From Bacteroidota bacterium (lineage in GTDB: Bacteria > Bacteroidota > Bacteroidia > B-17B0 > Aurantibacillaceae), in assembly GCA_025362395.1 (NCBI GenBank), contig JANYGK010000021.1:62001-126000 (forward strand): a stretch of DNA of 64,000 nucleotides. The letters run 5' to 3'. Made by a program: the position numbers and the translations under genes. Of the stretch, positions 7,350 to 45,160 are shown one piece after another. Position 1 is the first letter of the stretch, and every line of letters starts with the position of its first letter. The notes beneath the pieces were generated by a model. That model was not told where the DNA came from. It did no database searches and saw only the letters and a program-made list of their open reading frames with translations.

Positions 7350-7450
7350 TTTGGGCGTTACCTTGCGTAAAGAACAGGTGCAAGGTCAGGCTTTACATTA
7401 CAATCTTTTGCAGGAGGCAGGCAAAAGGATTTTCATTGCAATCCTAACGC
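7350..7450 (+). repeat. structured interspersed repeat, forward copy
   Basis: The element starts TTTGGGCGTTACC and ends ATCCTAACGC. GCGTTA (7355-7360) pairs with TAACGC (7445-7450), enclosing two hairpins: CCTTGC/GCAAGG (7361-7366 with 7380-7385) and CTTTTGC/GCAAAAG (7405-7411 with 7421-7427). The layout is a three-way junction. An inverted second copy lies at 7495-7581. It sits just past the ahcY terminator. Confidence 0.7.
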
Positions 7451-7494
7451 ATATATGCTTATTAAAAAAAATAAACTCCGGTGTAAAATAAATT

Positions 7495-7581
7495 GTGTGA
7501 GCGATTGCAGTAGAAATCCTTTTACGAAACGTAGTGGAGCAAAAGATTGAAACAAAAAGCGCGACCCGCAGGGTCACACCC
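7495..7581 (-). repeat. structured interspersed repeat, inverted copy
   Basis: On the minus strand it starts TTTGGGTGTGACCC, 10 bp after the ftsK stop. The closing stem is GTGTGA/TCACAC, where the forward copy has GCGTTA/TAACGC. The first hairpin is GACCC-tgc-GGGTC and the second CTTTTGC/GTAAAAG (one imperfect pair). The changed but still paired closing stem indicates that structure is kept. The first hairpin, followed by a T-rich stretch, could also end ftsK transcription. Confidence 0.7.
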
Positions 7582-15696: not shown

Positions 15697-15780
15697 GAAC
15701 AGGGAATAATGATTAAAGAACAGGGAATAATGGTGAAGGAACAGGGAATAGTGGTGAAGGAACAGGGAATCTTAGTCGAA
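15697..15780. repeat. 21-bp tandem repeat, four units
   Basis: Four units of exactly 21 bp start at 15697, 15718, 15739 and 15760, each beginning GAACAGGGAAT. Because 21 is a multiple of three, the array stays open in frame and yields a spurious repetitive ORF. It lies just outside the repeat-flanked GIY-YIG element. Confidence 0.85.
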
Positions 15781-15830
15781 GACATGCCTACGTTAATCAA
15801 AGAGCAGCTGCGGGTACAGAGGAACTTGAC

Positions 15831-15898
15831 GAATGCTAGAGGTGAGATTGCTTCGTGCCTCGCAATGACGAATAAAGGTGAGATTGCCTCGTGCCTCG
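15831..15898 (+). repeat. left array of the 39-bp GIY-YIG-associated repeat (two units)
   Basis: Two units contain GATTGCTTCGTGCCTCGCAA (or a near variant), preceded by the linker GAATGCTAGAGGTGA or a decayed form. The same unit, including the linker, forms the longer array at 16424-16640 on the other side of the GIY-YIG gene. Confidence 0.75.
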
Positions 15899-15910
15899 TA
15901 TCATAAATAA

Positions 15911-16016
15911 TAAATGTAATAATTTTTTGATATCCTGTCATTGCGAGCATTAGCGAAGCAATCTCATACACAGTTTTTAAGCATAGTATGATATTGATTT
16001 GTGTCTCGCAATGACG
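15911..16016. repeat. left ~106-bp direct repeat flanking the GIY-YIG gene
   Basis: The sequence starts TAAATGTAATAATTTTTT and ends TCGCAATGACG. It aligns with 16342-16448 over its whole length at roughly 85% identity by eye. The inner 15937-16016 part is itself a large palindrome: GTCATTGCGAG...GCAATCTC on one arm and GATTGATTTGTGTCTCGCAA on the other, around a centre containing CACAGTTTTTAAGCATAG. It ends 20 bp beyond the gene's stop. Confidence 0.8.
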
Positions 16017-16035: not shown

Positions 16036-16335
16036 TTACTCAACACCAACTTCTTTAGAAAGGTCTTGCCAATCTGGATTGATGGAAAGTATGAGGTTTT
16101 CTTTTTTTAAGCGACTGCCTGCTTTTATTTGTTTTTCTTTAGCAATGACATCTTCTATTCTTAAAAACACTTCGTAGTATACTAATTTATTAAGAGCATA
16201 TCTGCTTGTAAAAATTTGTCTAAAAGTGCCGGTTCTGTGCTCGTATAATCGTTTAACAATATTGGACGTAACACCTGTATATATAGTACTATTACCATGA
16301 TTTGTAAGTATGTAAACAGCGCCGCCTTTTTTCAT
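16036..16335 (-). CDS. solitary GIY-YIG endonuclease family protein
   Basis: 99 aa, essentially a bare GIY-YIG domain: AVYILTN at 6-12 and TIYTGVTSN (the two tyrosine motifs), RLYEHRTG with the catalytic Arg, and EDVIAKEKQIKAG carrying the catalytic Glu, then NPDWQDL. It belongs to the small YhbQ/URI-like group that is abundant in Bacteroidota and usually of unknown function. No homing-intron or UvrC context exists. The gene lies between two ~107-bp direct repeats: one ends 20 bp after its stop, the other begins about 6 bp before its start and so contains its promoter. Gene and repeats may be one mobile or selfish unit. Confidence 0.9.
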   Translation of the reverse strand: MKKGGAVYILTNHGNSTIYTGVTSNIVKRLYEHRTGTFRQIFTSRYALNKLVYYEVFLRIEDVIAKEKQIKAGSRLKKENLILSINPDWQDLSKEVGVE

Positions 16336-16341
16336 AAGTAT

Positions 16342-16448
16342 TAAATGTAATAATTTTTCTGCTATTTCGTCATTGCGAGCGATAGCGAAGCCATTTCATA
16401 CACAGTTTTTAAGCATAGTATAAGATTGCTTCGTGCCTCGCAATGACG
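16342..16448. repeat. right ~107-bp direct repeat flanking the GIY-YIG gene
   Basis: This is the partner of 15911-16016, in the same orientation. The palindrome at 16368-16448 has arms CGTCATTGCGAG...GCGAAG and GATTGCTTCGTGCCTCGCAA around the same ATACACAGTTTTTAAGCATA centre. It covers the 5' flank of the nuclease gene, and its last arm is also the first unit of the tandem array that follows. Confidence 0.8.
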
Positions 16449-16640
16449 AATGTTAGAGGTGAGATTGCTTCGTGCCTCGCACTAACGAAATGCTAGTATG
16501 AGATTGCTTCGTGCCTCGCAATGACGAATGCCAGATGTGGGATTGCTTCGTGCCTCGCAACGACGAGATGCTAGAGGTGAGATTTGTTTTGTGTCTCGCA
16601 CTAACGAAATGCTAGTGTGAACTTGCTTCGTTCAATGCAA
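16424..16640 (+). repeat. right array of the 39-40-bp repeat (six units)
   Basis: Units with GATTGCTTCG or a variant start at 16424, 16463, 16502, 16541, 16581 and 16621, giving spacings of 39, 39, 39, 40 and 40 bp. The linkers (ACGAATGCTAGAGGTGA and variants) are conserved too, so this is a true tandem repeat and not a CRISPR array. The last, decayed unit runs into the 3' end of the next gene (stop at 16632). Confidence 0.85.
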
Positions 16641-18176: not shown

Positions 18177-20327
18177 CTACTTCATCAACTTCATCTCATT
18201 CAATAAATATCCTGCACCCGCGTATTTATCAATGATAAATAAGGTGTAGCGCACATCTAATGTAATATTACGGCATTGGTTAGGGTTGTACATAATGTCA
18301 CTCATAGTGCCCTCCCAGTTACGATCGAAGTTAGTGCCTATTAATTCGCCTTTGGCATTAAACACCGGGCTGCCGCTGTTGCCTCCTGTGGTATGATTAC
18401 TTGCCGTAAAAGCCACCTGTATTTTTCCGTCTTTGTTAGCGTATTGTCCAAAATCTTTTTTAACGTAAAGCTCTTTTAATTTTGGCGGAACGTTAAACTC
18501 TTCATCTCCGGGAATTTCTTTTTCCATAATACCGTCAAGCGTTGTATAGTAATTATTTTCAACACCATCTTTTGGTTTATAGCCCGCTACTTTACCGTAA
18601 GCCACACGCAGTGTTGAGTTAGCATCCGGGTAAAACTTTTTATCTTTTATTACTTCCTGTTGTCCTTTAATGTAAAGCTTTTCCAACTCGTTAATTTCTT
18701 TTTCATCATACTGAAATTGTGGGAATACAGACTCCGAATAATATTTAAGGATAGCGTTTGTAATATAGTACACGGGATCTCGTTCGTAGAGGTTTGGGTA
18801 CTTTTCAATATCATTCAGCATGGCTTCCGTTTTTGTTTTATCTACAAAACTTGTGTTAGAGAATAAAAAATCCGTCATTTTTTTTGCATCATTATTATTC
18901 GCAATAATAAAAGAATCTAATACAGGGGGCCTGTTACCTGCTGCTACCCCTTTAATGTATTCGTTTAGCATAGCTTGGCAAATTTTAATATCTGTAGGTT
19001 GATTATAGCCTTTATAAAAGCCGAGTTTTTTATATTCTGCCAGTGAACCGTCAAATGTGTTTGCTAAGCCGCGCTGTTTCTTTTTAAGCTCAGCTATTAA
19101 ACTTATGTAGCCTCTCGCGTAAGTAAACGCTTCAATGGTCATTAAGCATTCGCTGTAGTAATCTACCTGTTTATTTAAAATTTTATATTCTGTATATACT
19201 TTTTGAAATTGATTAAACAGGTTACCGTATTTTTCTTTTTTTATGGGATCAGCGGTTATAGAGGTTGTAAATTGTTTTTCGAATAATTGTTTTTTTGTTA
19301 CGGCATCGTATTTTTTAAGACCGTTCATTTCACCCATCCATTTTTTATAATAGTTGGCAATGCTCGCGTACCTGCCTGCATAAGCAATTCTTACGGCATC
19401 GCTTTGGCGCATGTCCACATTCATAATGCTCAATCGTTTTTCGCGAAGCGATACTTTTAAGGGATCGCTTTCGTTCATGATCATATCAACCGCATAGCTC
19501 GATAAATATTCCTGTGTTCTTCCGGGGAAGCCGTATACCATGGTGAAGTCGCCTTCTTTATAACCTTTTAAAGAAATAGGAATCACATGTTTCGGGGTAT
19601 AAGGAACATTGTCTTGACTGTATTCCGCAGGCTTGTTGTCTTTACCGGAATAAATCCGGAACACAGAGAAATCGGCATTGTGACGAGGCCACATCCAGTT
19701 GTCTGTTTCACCGCCAAACTTACCAATAGCAGAAGGCGGGGCGCCTACCATACGTACATCTTTAAATGTTTCAACTACAAATAAATAGTATTCGTTACCG
19801 TAAAAGAACGGTCGCACAAAGGCATCATACTGAGTACCTGCCGAGGCTTCTTTTTCAATTTGTTTAATGTTTGCTTTTGTAATGGAATCTGTTTTTGCTC
19901 CGGTGCTTGTTGCCAATACCCCTTTTAATACTTTAGCGGTTACATCTTCAATACGGTTAATAATAGTAGCCGTTAAGTTGGGGGTATACACTTCTTCATT
20001 TTTATTCATGGCCCAAAAGCCATTGGTCAGGTAATCTTTTTCAACCGTGCTGTGGTAGGCAATGGATGAGTACCCGCAATGGTGATTGGTTAAAATTAAT
20101 CCTTTATCGGAAACGATCTCGGCCGTACAGCCGCCTCCAAACTGAACAATGGCGTCTTTTAAGCTCGATTTATTAATGCTGTAAATTTGTTCGGCCGTTA
20201 ATTTAAGCCCGTTCTTTTTCATGTCTTTAATATTCATGGCATTTAAAAGTTGTGGTAACCACATACCTTCGTCTGCCTTACTTATTAAGGAGGTAATCAG
20301 GATTAATGCAAGTAAAGTGTGTTTCAT
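18177..20327 (-). CDS. dpp11: S46 family dipeptidyl-peptidase, DPP11-type
   Basis: 716 aa with signal peptide MKHTLLALILITSLISKA. The chymotrypsin-fold triad is visible: His 83 in LTNHHCGYSS, Asp in WPRHNADFSVF and Ser in TGGNSGSPVF near the C terminus, with RYTLFIIDKYAGAGYLL closing the protein. Eighteen residues after the catalytic Ser is Arg (NFDRNWEG). In this family Arg there marks DPP11 (cleavage after Asp/Glu) and Gly marks DPP7. It works in the periplasm, releasing dipeptides for uptake. The gene is followed upstream by dispersed repeats. Confidence 0.93.
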   Translation of the reverse strand: MKHTLLALILITSLISKADEGMWLPQLLNAMNIKDMKKNGLKLTAEQIYSINKSSLKDAIVQFGGGCTAEIVSDKGLILTNHHCGYSSIAYHSTVEKDYLTNGFWAMNKNEEVYTPNLTATIINRIEDVTAKVLKGVLATSTGAKTDSITKANIKQIEKEASAGTQYDAFVRPFFYGNEYYLFVVETFKDVRMVGAPPSAIGKFGGETDNWMWPRHNADFSVFRIYSGKDNKPAEYSQDNVPYTPKHVIPISLKGYKEGDFTMVYGFPGRTQEYLSSYAVDMIMNESDPLKVSLREKRLSIMNVDMRQSDAVRIAYAGRYASIANYYKKWMGEMNGLKKYDAVTKKQLFEKQFTTSITADPIKKEKYGNLFNQFQKVYTEYKILNKQVDYYSECLMTIEAFTYARGYISLIAELKKKQRGLANTFDGSLAEYKKLGFYKGYNQPTDIKICQAMLNEYIKGVAAGNRPPVLDSFIIANNNDAKKMTDFLFSNTSFVDKTKTEAMLNDIEKYPNLYERDPVYYITNAILKYYSESVFPQFQYDEKEINELEKLYIKGQQEVIKDKKFYPDANSTLRVAYGKVAGYKPKDGVENNYYTTLDGIMEKEIPGDEEFNVPPKLKELYVKKDFGQYANKDGKIQVAFTASNHTTGGNSGSPVFNAKGELIGTNFDRNWEGTMSDIMYNPNQCRNITLDVRYTLFIIDKYAGAGYLLNEMKLMK

Positions 20328-20380: not shown

Positions 20381-20428
20381 TTTGTTATATAGTTTATTAT
20401 AGAGGCAGGGAGAAATTTTATTGTATAG

Positions 20429-20500
20429 CGTCATTGCGAGGCACGAAGCAATCTCCTATTTAGCGTTGGTTGAGATTGCTTCACTTTGTTCGCAATGACG
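20429..20500. repeat. large hairpin of the GIY-YIG-associated repeat, after punA
   Basis: Left arm CGTCATTGCGAGGCACGAAG plus CAATCTC (20429-20455). Right arm GAGATTGCTTC then TCGCAATGACG, ending at 20500. A 16-bp centre separates them. The arms are the same sequence as the palindromes around the GIY-YIG gene 4 kb away. It begins 7 bp past the punA stop, so it will be transcribed as a 3' structure. Confidence 0.8.
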
Positions 20501-20507
20501 GAGTATA

Positions 20508-21323
20508 TTACATCGAGCGAATTACTTCCTTAACAATCAAACTCATTTTTGGTTCTGCCGCTGCTGCAATATGCTGTACTTCTTCGTGCGTTACTTCCAC
20601 TATTTTTCCGTCAATACCTAAATCTGTTACAATGCTCACGCCAAATACACGCATGCCGCCATGCCGTGCTACAATAACTTCCGGCACTGTACTCATGCCA
20701 ACTGTATCTGCTCCTATACGGGCAATGTAGCGGTATTCGGCAGGCGTTTCAAAGCATGGGCCTGTTAAGCCCGCGTAGCTTCCCCGGCTTACTTTTATAT
20801 TATTTTGTTTTGCGATCTCTAAGGCTTTAGCAATTAATTTTTTATCGTAAGGCTCGCTCATATCAAGAAAGCGAGGCCCTAGTTCAGAAATATTTTTCCC
20901 TATTAAGGGGTTAGTAGGAAATAAATTTATATGATCGTCAATGATCATGATCTCCCCAATTTCAAAAGAAGGATTCATACCACCGCTCGCATTTGATACA
21001 ATTAAAGTATGTGCTCCAAGGGCTTTCATAACACGCACCGGGAAGGTAATTTGGTGCATGGTATAGCCTTCATAAAAATGGAAACGGCCTTGCATGGCCA
21101 TTACTTTTTTTCCGCCTAATTCGCCGAAAATTAATTTACCGCTATGGCCTTCTACAGTGCTTACAGGAAAATTTGGAACTTCTTCATAAGGAATAATATA
21201 TTCCGCACTTATTTCTTTTACTAATCCTCCTAAGCCTGTTCCTAATATGATGCCAACCTCAGGTTTAAAATTGTTTGTTTTTTCAAGAATACTTTTTGTG
21301 GTAAAATTTATTTGTTCTAACAT
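20508..21323 (-). CDS. punA: purine-nucleoside phosphorylase (trimeric, class I)
   Basis: 271 aa, the normal size for trimeric PNP. Signatures: GIILGTGLGGL (phosphate loop), EGHSGKLIFG, MQGRFHFYEGYTMHQITFPVRVMKALG, VSNASGGMN, LTGPCFETPAEYR with the substrate-binding Glu, and TVGMSTVPEVIVARH. It phosphorolyses inosine and guanosine (deoxy)nucleosides in purine salvage. It overlaps the 3' end of lpxK by 41 bp, so the two form an operon. A long palindromic hairpin lies 7 bp after the stop. Confidence 0.95.
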   Translation of the reverse strand: MLEQINFTTKSILEKTNNFKPEVGIILGTGLGGLVKEISAEYIIPYEEVPNFPVSTVEGHSGKLIFGELGGKKVMAMQGRFHFYEGYTMHQITFPVRVMKALGAHTLIVSNASGGMNPSFEIGEIMIIDDHINLFPTNPLIGKNISELGPRFLDMSEPYDKKLIAKALEIAKQNNIKVSRGSYAGLTGPCFETPAEYRYIARIGADTVGMSTVPEVIVARHGGMRVFGVSIVTDLGIDGKIVEVTHEEVQHIAAAAEPKMSLIVKEVIRSM

Positions 21324-44945: not shown

Positions 44946-44979
44946 TATAGTGTGTGTTATTATTTATAAAATCTGATCT

Positions 44980-45142
44980 ACTTATTTTCTCCGGTTAACC
45001 GGGACGAATTCCCACCTTCTTTTAGATGAAGAATAGGATTTATGAGGTAAGATCAATTAATCTTACAGCTTAGGTCTTAATCTTCCTTCTTAAGGGTTGG
45101 TAAAGCTTCATTGGGCGTATCCCTCTGCTTTTCTTAATAAGT
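44980..45142 (-). ncRNA. SAM-I (S-box) riboswitch upstream of metH
   Basis: Minus-strand sequence matches the S-box core: CTTATTAAGAAAAGCAGAGGG, then GCCCAATGAAG, CCAACCC and a late AAGGTGGGAATTCGTCCC. P1 forms from ACTTATT (45136-45142) and AATAAGT (44980-44986). High SAM is expected to favour the terminator and turn metH off. The match was made by eye, with a few departures from consensus in the P3 region. Confidence 0.88.
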
Positions 45143-45160
45143 GTGTTAAAGAACGAGGCA

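Follow-up and report, generated by a model that had tools for sequence, protein, structure and literature searches.

Pfam confirms punA, lpxK, and an S46 peptidase gene within the window (the whole 64,000-nucleotide stretch of DNA that was analysed), all three on the minus strand, and a hairpin lies in the gap between punA and the S46 gene. The hairpin starts 7 bp past the punA stop, and the S46 start (20327) lies 101 bp beyond it. The features of this region are as follows:

18177-20327, minus strand, S46 peptidase gene, downstream of the hairpin (PF10459)
20429-20456, plus strand, REP unit 1 of the hairpin, GCGTC-ATTGC-GAGGCACGAA-GCAAT-CTC
20457-20471, no strand given, spacer of 15 bp between the two inverted REP units, unlike the spacer of the pairs at the GIY-YIG gene
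20472-20500, minus strand, REP unit 2, inverted, with apex ACAAAGT where unit 1 has GGCAC
20508-21323, minus strand, punA-like phosphorylase gene, upstream of the hairpin (PF01048)

The hairpin as a whole (20429-20500) is composed of GCGTCATTGCGAGGCACGAAGCAATCTC and the complement of CGTCATTGCGAACAAAGTGAAGCAATCTC, inverted with respect to each other across the spacer. Its presence in the punA-S46 gap, reported in the initial annotation, is confirmed by the coordinates and by RNA and DNA folds that are better than those of shuffled sequences. The RNA fold of 20415-20520 reaches -39.7 kcal/mol (z -5.2, with none of 200 shuffles equally good), that of the hairpin on the punA strand is also strong (z -5.0), and the DNA fold of 20428-20500 has a z of -6.4 versus shuffles. 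The arms had been described as about 26 bp, which is correct as an arm length but not as unbroken pairing, because an internal loop divides the pairing into two stretches, outer and inner, of 11-12 pairs. A repeat search of a 181-bp region at default settings reported no pair at the hairpin, and the plasmid sequences searched with the hairpin itself yielded no match.

A CGTC tag heads both units of the hairpin and most of the 57 units listed from the genome. When up to 3 mismatches are allowed, 21 copies of the arm are found in the whole genome (0 with the reversed pattern as control), and the looser pattern GTCATTGCGA-N(2-22)-GAAGCAATC finds 32 genome-wide, again with 0 in the control. For the repeats of relatives, the strict pattern was replaced by a gapped one with a free apex, because the apex varies and the strict pattern consequently missed many of them. 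The original view of the hairpin as REP-like was right. Tandem arrays of whole REP pairs, with periods of ~167 and ~190 bp, were observed at G000:C78 17922-18691 (L004/L012-L014) and at G000:C19 5245-5815 (L001/L002).

The placement of the copies was surveyed in the fetched loci, using a simple ORF caller and raw counts; the genome holds further copies outside this set. The 27 repeat clusters fall between co-oriented ORFs in 11 cases, between convergent ORFs in 10, and between divergent ORFs in 1, with 3 inside ORFs and 2 at contig edges. The nearest stop is a median of 11.5 bp away (22 clusters), and the nearest start 102 bp (13 clusters). By these raw counts, placement relative to genes does not look random; the comparison of copies with stop codons that had been proposed earlier finds them close to stops.

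Similar repeats have been described. According to the passages available from the 2013 survey that defined them, CGTC REPs apparently lack a dedicated transposase, are intergenic and near 3' gene ends, and have the tag CGTC, TGTC, or CCTC on one end of every unit, a stem of 8-9 bp starting with AT, a loop of 4-5, and a three-base tail that is mostly, but not always, CCA; no CGTC-flanked tyrosine transposase genes are reported there, and it is GTAG REPs that are linked to RAYTs (Di Nocera et al. 2013, PMC3733652). As far as those passages allow the comparison, the window repeat shares with CGTC REPs the CGTC/TGTC tag, a palindromic unit starting with AT, inverted head-to-head pairs, an intergenic position near 3' gene ends, and the occurrence of several types per genome. 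In contrast, it has a perfect stem of 5 bp (ATTGC/GCAAT), an apex of 10 bases, the tail CTC, and a gene partner. Since its stem and loop are unlike those published, the window hairpin is called CGTC-REP-like here and is assigned to none of the four published families.

The gene partner lies 4 kb away, where the arms of the hairpin are found on both sides of a small GIY-YIG gene, at 15844-16016 and at 16368-16563. The earlier statement that the arms, and not the centre, are what the hairpin has in common with this locus is borne out, as the arms recur and the spacer differs. The features of the locus are as follows:

15844-15870, minus strand, single REP unit beyond the 3' pair, by arm match
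15936-16016, no strand given, inverted REP pair 3' of the GIY-YIG gene, its centre nearly that of the 5' pair
16036-16335, minus strand, gene for a 99-aa GIY-YIG nuclease, the proposed cognate mobilising enzyme (PF01541, E 3.9e-12)
16368-16448, no strand given, inverted REP pair 5' of the GIY-YIG gene, by arm matches
16422-16563, minus strand, tandem array of REP units with a period of 39 bp, the first unit being part of the 5' pair

Adjoining the nuclease locus, a short tandem repeat with the motif TTCCCTGTTC occupies 15700-15790. Elsewhere in the window there are two inverted Flavo-1 RNA matches, 39 bp apart, at 7380-7570, and a SAM riboswitch on the minus strand at 44979-45143.

The 99-aa protein is placed in the GIY-YIG superfamily by its PF01541 match together with conserved Y, Y, R, H, and E residues, which we take to be the catalytic residues of the superfamily. 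Within an alignment of nuclease relatives from 133 of the 141 loci, Y8, Y19, G21, R29, H33, and E67 are each conserved in all or all but one of the sequences (at least 132/133). Pfam detects the GIY-YIG catalytic domain only and no separate DNA-binding domain. By sequence profile, the nearest solved relatives are likewise small GIY-YIG-like proteins, the UPF0213 proteins PDB 1zg2 (E 1e-9) and 1ywl (E 1e-7), both listed as hypothetical only; structure-specific SLX1 and UvrC are matched weakly.

The same genome contains further small GIY-YIG genes. A decayed paralogue with 3 stops (L023) has the window repeat type on both sides. The L024 gene has inverted GTC-tagged repeats of another type, CGTCATGCTGAACTCGATTCAGCATCTC, whose stem (ATGCTGAA) and loop (CTCGA) agree with those published for CGTC REPs, whereas those of the window type do not. 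The L026 gene has repeats of the TGTCACTTCGAG type, GTC-tagged and mainly direct. Derivation of the punA spacer from the decayed L023 element was also considered; it proved too weak, as the common CCTATTYAG occurs in 2 of the 57 listed units. In other genomes of the genus, five orthologues with 69-85% identity lie between inverted CGTCATTGCGA...GAAGCAATCTC units that have the same stem but vary in the apex; at one of them (L113), the upstream unit is degraded. In two genomes, and by eye, the orthologous nuclease elements L114 and L115 appear to share a location, the 3' end of one gene, with opposite orientations.

Around small GIY-YIG genes, the tag-to-tag unit has a median size of 408 bp (84 units). 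At G092:C3, G066:C86, and G076:C2, GIY-YIG matches occur in tandem with periods of 345-537 bp, similar to that unit. Some small GIY-YIG genes (L027, L060, L066, L069, L076, L078, L125, L126, and others) are, by eye, flanked on both sides not by REPs but by repeated pieces of tRNA and by tRNA genes; L027 is one of the genes of the source genome. Of the 12 loci of this type that were tested, ARAGORN detects a tRNA in 9.

The bracketing of such genes was surveyed with a flank score. The 250 bp preceding a gene were aligned locally with the 250 bp following it, taken as reverse complement for inverted matches or as they stand for direct ones, and the best alignment was scored with a threshold of 30. 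For an independent set, contigs were scanned by protein alignment only, and the best 80 of at least 576 confirmed places, from ~20 phyla by record titles, were taken. An inverted match between the flanks is present in 58 of these 80 relatives, compared with 4 of 568 shifted control positions; when direct matches are included, the numbers are 62/80 and 12/568. The scan was queried only with proteins of repeat-flanked genes, so that the result speaks for that part of the superfamily. Among the loci of the genome itself, its genus, and its phylum, 44 of 61 pass the threshold, compared with 10 of 404 shifted positions of the same loci. Below the threshold are 17 of the 61 and 18 of the 80 loci. 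None of 18 punA genes passes (those of 22 loci with full flanks), and none of 29 uvrC genes, which also encode a GIY-YIG domain, has matching flanks. Flanks of different loci, scored against each other, reach the threshold in 13 of 482 cases, some of which have the same repeat type. Of eight plasmid loci picked by hand from 34 records, seven have an inverted match; no repeat is found around the GIY-YIG gene of a Rhizobium tumorigenes plasmid (L225). Locus L068, which is the L026 gene, was left out of the 61, and L245 out of the uvrC control (29/30). Counted as they fell were L137, with almost no upstream flank, and L140, L143, L185, and L207, with early stops.

Both flanks contain an inward-pointing YGTCA head within 150 bp at 57 of the 80 protein-chosen loci (47/1090 controls) and at 22 of the 61 loci of the genome, genus, and phylum (14/789 controls). 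Heads that point outward are enriched more weakly (23/80 versus 50/1090 and 7/61 versus 24/789); their enrichment indicates that the gene is surrounded by repeat clusters and not just by a single clean pair. Counted in 57 of the 58 inverted matches (L183, with 29 bp of downstream flank, is missing), the commonest 4-mers at the outer end of the best match are TCAT (33/57) and GTCA (32/57). Matching inverted repeats that bracket small GIY-YIG genes are general and occur in many bacterial groups.

Furthermore, the repeat type follows protein relatedness across loci. This comparison used 128 of the 141 loci, with 12 same-site pairs removed (L114/L115 was kept) and with pairs that are not independent of one another. 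Flank sequence is common to 71 of 81 pairs of loci when the proteins are at least 70% identical, and the fraction falls with identity: 169/415 at 60-70%, 442/2159 at 50-60%, 161/2470 at 40-50%, 37/2678 at 30-40%, and 0/313 below 30%. Control windows 600 bp away share sequence in 0.2-0.8% of pairs, but in 8 of 81 in the class of at least 70%, indicating that some same-site pairs remain there. Repeat numbers per genome vary with the gene as well. Repeat counts range from 2 to 35 in the six genomes with a close gene (at least 69% identity; mean 16.5) and from 0 to 15 in the 14 without one (mean 3.2). The one-sided Mann-Whitney p for this difference is 0.005; it takes no account of phylogeny, and the genomes are 76-99% complete. 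There are exceptions: G099 and G106 have 11 and 15 repeats without a close gene, and G105 has the gene and only 2 repeats.

Gene-less equivalents were found for three insertion sites: sufB-sufC in Azospirillum, beside fnrL in Sphingobium, and beside gltA in Sinorhizobium. In Azospirillum lipoferum 4B, a repeat pair, a GIY-YIG gene, and a second pair lie between sufB and sufC. The comparison covered 5 of the 11 other Azospirillum records listed, and none of the five has a CGTC pair there (the fifth by eye); the spacer is 55-129 bp in the four that are annotated, and B510 has an untagged hairpin. The three aligned Sphingobium plasmid records that carry the gene have it beside fnrL. At this site, the TomTYG64 record shows one palindrome that is tagged at each end, and both the gene and the palindrome are missing from TomTYG72 and TomTYG65. 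Similarly, Sinorhizobium K101 lacks the element of Ak57 and has a single two-headed palindrome at the site. In loci L229 and L228, the single palindrome that takes the place of the gene of relatives is flanked at each end by a GTC-like tag. The single palindromes of TomTYG64 and K101 would fit excision, deletion, or a pre-existing target alike. No target-site duplication can be read at the compared sites, where the relatives are too divergent. A comparison of S. medicae strains was rejected as a clean insertion, the difference being a loss of ~190 bp between repeat pieces.

The punA-S46 spacer itself was read in 19 genomes of the genus, the source genome included, with S46 next in 18 and the contig ending first in one. 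It had been suggested that the hairpin terminates or stabilises the lpxK-punA transcript, an explanation that draws on the strong fold of the punA-strand RNA and on the location of the repeats just past stops, which is also the location of published REPs in the passages available (PMC3733652). In addition, at least G099 and G103 have, by eye, other kinds of hairpin after punA. However, no U-run follows the hairpin on the punA strand, as an intrinsic terminator would require, and the repeat type of the window is behind punA in none of the 18 other genomes; in 7 of these, the spacer measures 23-76 bp and hardly folds. (A terminator scan did not flag the hairpin, but the scan takes loops of 3-8 bases only and so could not have done so.) Because there is no U-run and these relatives have short, nearly foldless spacers, a terminating or stabilising role is unsupported by the sequence; the hairpin is not a conserved terminator, termination was rejected as its main function, and an mRNA element that ends or protects the transcript is improbable as its explanation. 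Behind punA, G106 carries an inverted tagged pair that belongs to another type, and G113 has one unit only, of a third type. The spacer is only 23 bp in G116 and 25 bp in G111, suggesting that punA and S46 may form one operon in which the hairpin arrived late. The hairpin has the appearance of a small mobile DNA repeat and not of a gene terminator.

If the repeat is mobile, the GIY-YIG gene could have several relationships to it. GIY-YIG domains occur in homing enzymes, and it could be postulated that the gene is a homing-type parasite inserting into REPs that something else has spread, which would agree with the single palindromes at the gene-less sites of TomTYG64 and K101. This is unlikely, given the five Azospirillum relatives with no CGTC pair at sufB-sufC, the match between repeat type and protein relatedness, and the finding of no other candidate mover linked to the repeats. 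A RAYT or other transposase might instead move the repeats, with the nuclease a bystander, as the link between RAYTs and GTAG REPs would suggest. Yet the genome, searched for the Y1 class, has a single Y1 transposase match, whose 3.3-kb locus contains no copy of the repeat, and hence no RAYT gene flanked by the window repeat; nor were CGTC-flanked tyrosine transposase genes reported in the available passages of the 2013 survey (PMC3733652). A RAYT as mover was therefore set aside as unsupported, and a transposase of any kind is highly improbable. Finally, the nuclease could belong to the host and serve to trim or police REP cruciforms without spreading them, a role compatible with its nearest solved relatives being hypothetical proteins and with its weak matches to SLX1 and UvrC. 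The several unrelated types in one genome, the decayed copy, and the tandem copies at 345-537 bp look selfish, however, and such a host role is quite unlikely.

Taken together, these results have led to the hypothesis, to which we assign a probability of about 0.7, that the punA hairpin is a gene-less, non-autonomous mobile repeat and that the small GIY-YIG nuclease is the mobilising enzyme of its family. In this model, the non-autonomous form would be two CGTC-tagged REP-like units, inverted and separated by a short spacer, and the autonomous form would have the same inverted units with a small single-domain GIY-YIG endonuclease gene between them, ~400 bp from tag to tag. The nuclease would recognise CGTC/TGTC-tagged hairpins of its own type, whether extruded or single-stranded; since Pfam finds no separate DNA-binding domain, we infer that it reads the shape of the hairpin together with the tag. 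It would then cut at or near its own hairpin, and cutting would drive movement, in that the cut unit, with or without the gene, would be copied or pasted elsewhere through repair or re-joining. Insertions would be tolerated mostly just past stop codons, and any effect on the punA mRNA would be a by-product.

Such an element would resemble known systems in part. As in the REPIN/RAYT system, the non-autonomous unit is an inverted REP pair and the gene is bracketed by its own REP type, but there the tag is GTAG and the enzyme an HUH tyrosine transposase, whereas here a CGTC tag is paired with a GIY-YIG nuclease. MITEs are short inverted-repeat elements whose parent insertion sequence is a longer version with an enzyme gene. 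Here too an enzyme gene lies between inverted repeats common to gene-less copies; in contrast to MITEs and their parents, the ends are hairpin units, the enzyme is a GIY-YIG protein of ~100 aa, and no target-site duplication is seen among the divergent relatives. GIY-YIG enzymes of selfish elements include free-standing homing endonucleases and those of Penelope-like elements. Unlike these, the 99-aa protein is a catalytic domain only by Pfam, and tagged hairpins bracket its gene. Among the titles and abstract openings listed from an open-access library, with subscription papers and preprints mostly outside, no paper was found that ties GIY-YIG genes to REPs. The available parts of the 2006 survey of the GIY-YIG superfamily (PMC1564403) do not mention palindromes, intergenic placement, or UPF0213, those of a 2024 MITE review (PMC10969869) do not mention CGTC or GIY, and the passages of PMC12306157 and PMC6006769 leave GIY-YIG unmentioned.

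A broader proposal, for which the odds seem only a little better than even, is that the CGTC REPs of many phyla are non-autonomous copies of an unrecognised class of transposable element, whose sole enzyme would be a GIY-YIG endonuclease of ~100 aa acting on its own tagged hairpins, and which would have a sister group with tRNA-gene pieces as ends. Unlike the GTAG REPs with their RAYTs, CGTC REPs have been without a known mover since 2013, and the gene bracketed by them in distant phyla is a named candidate for that enzyme. If this is true, it would provide a role for many small genes now annotated as 'GIY-YIG nuclease family protein' or 'excinuclease ABC subunit C', and the small GIY-YIG nuclease may be the long-missing engine that spreads such repeats.
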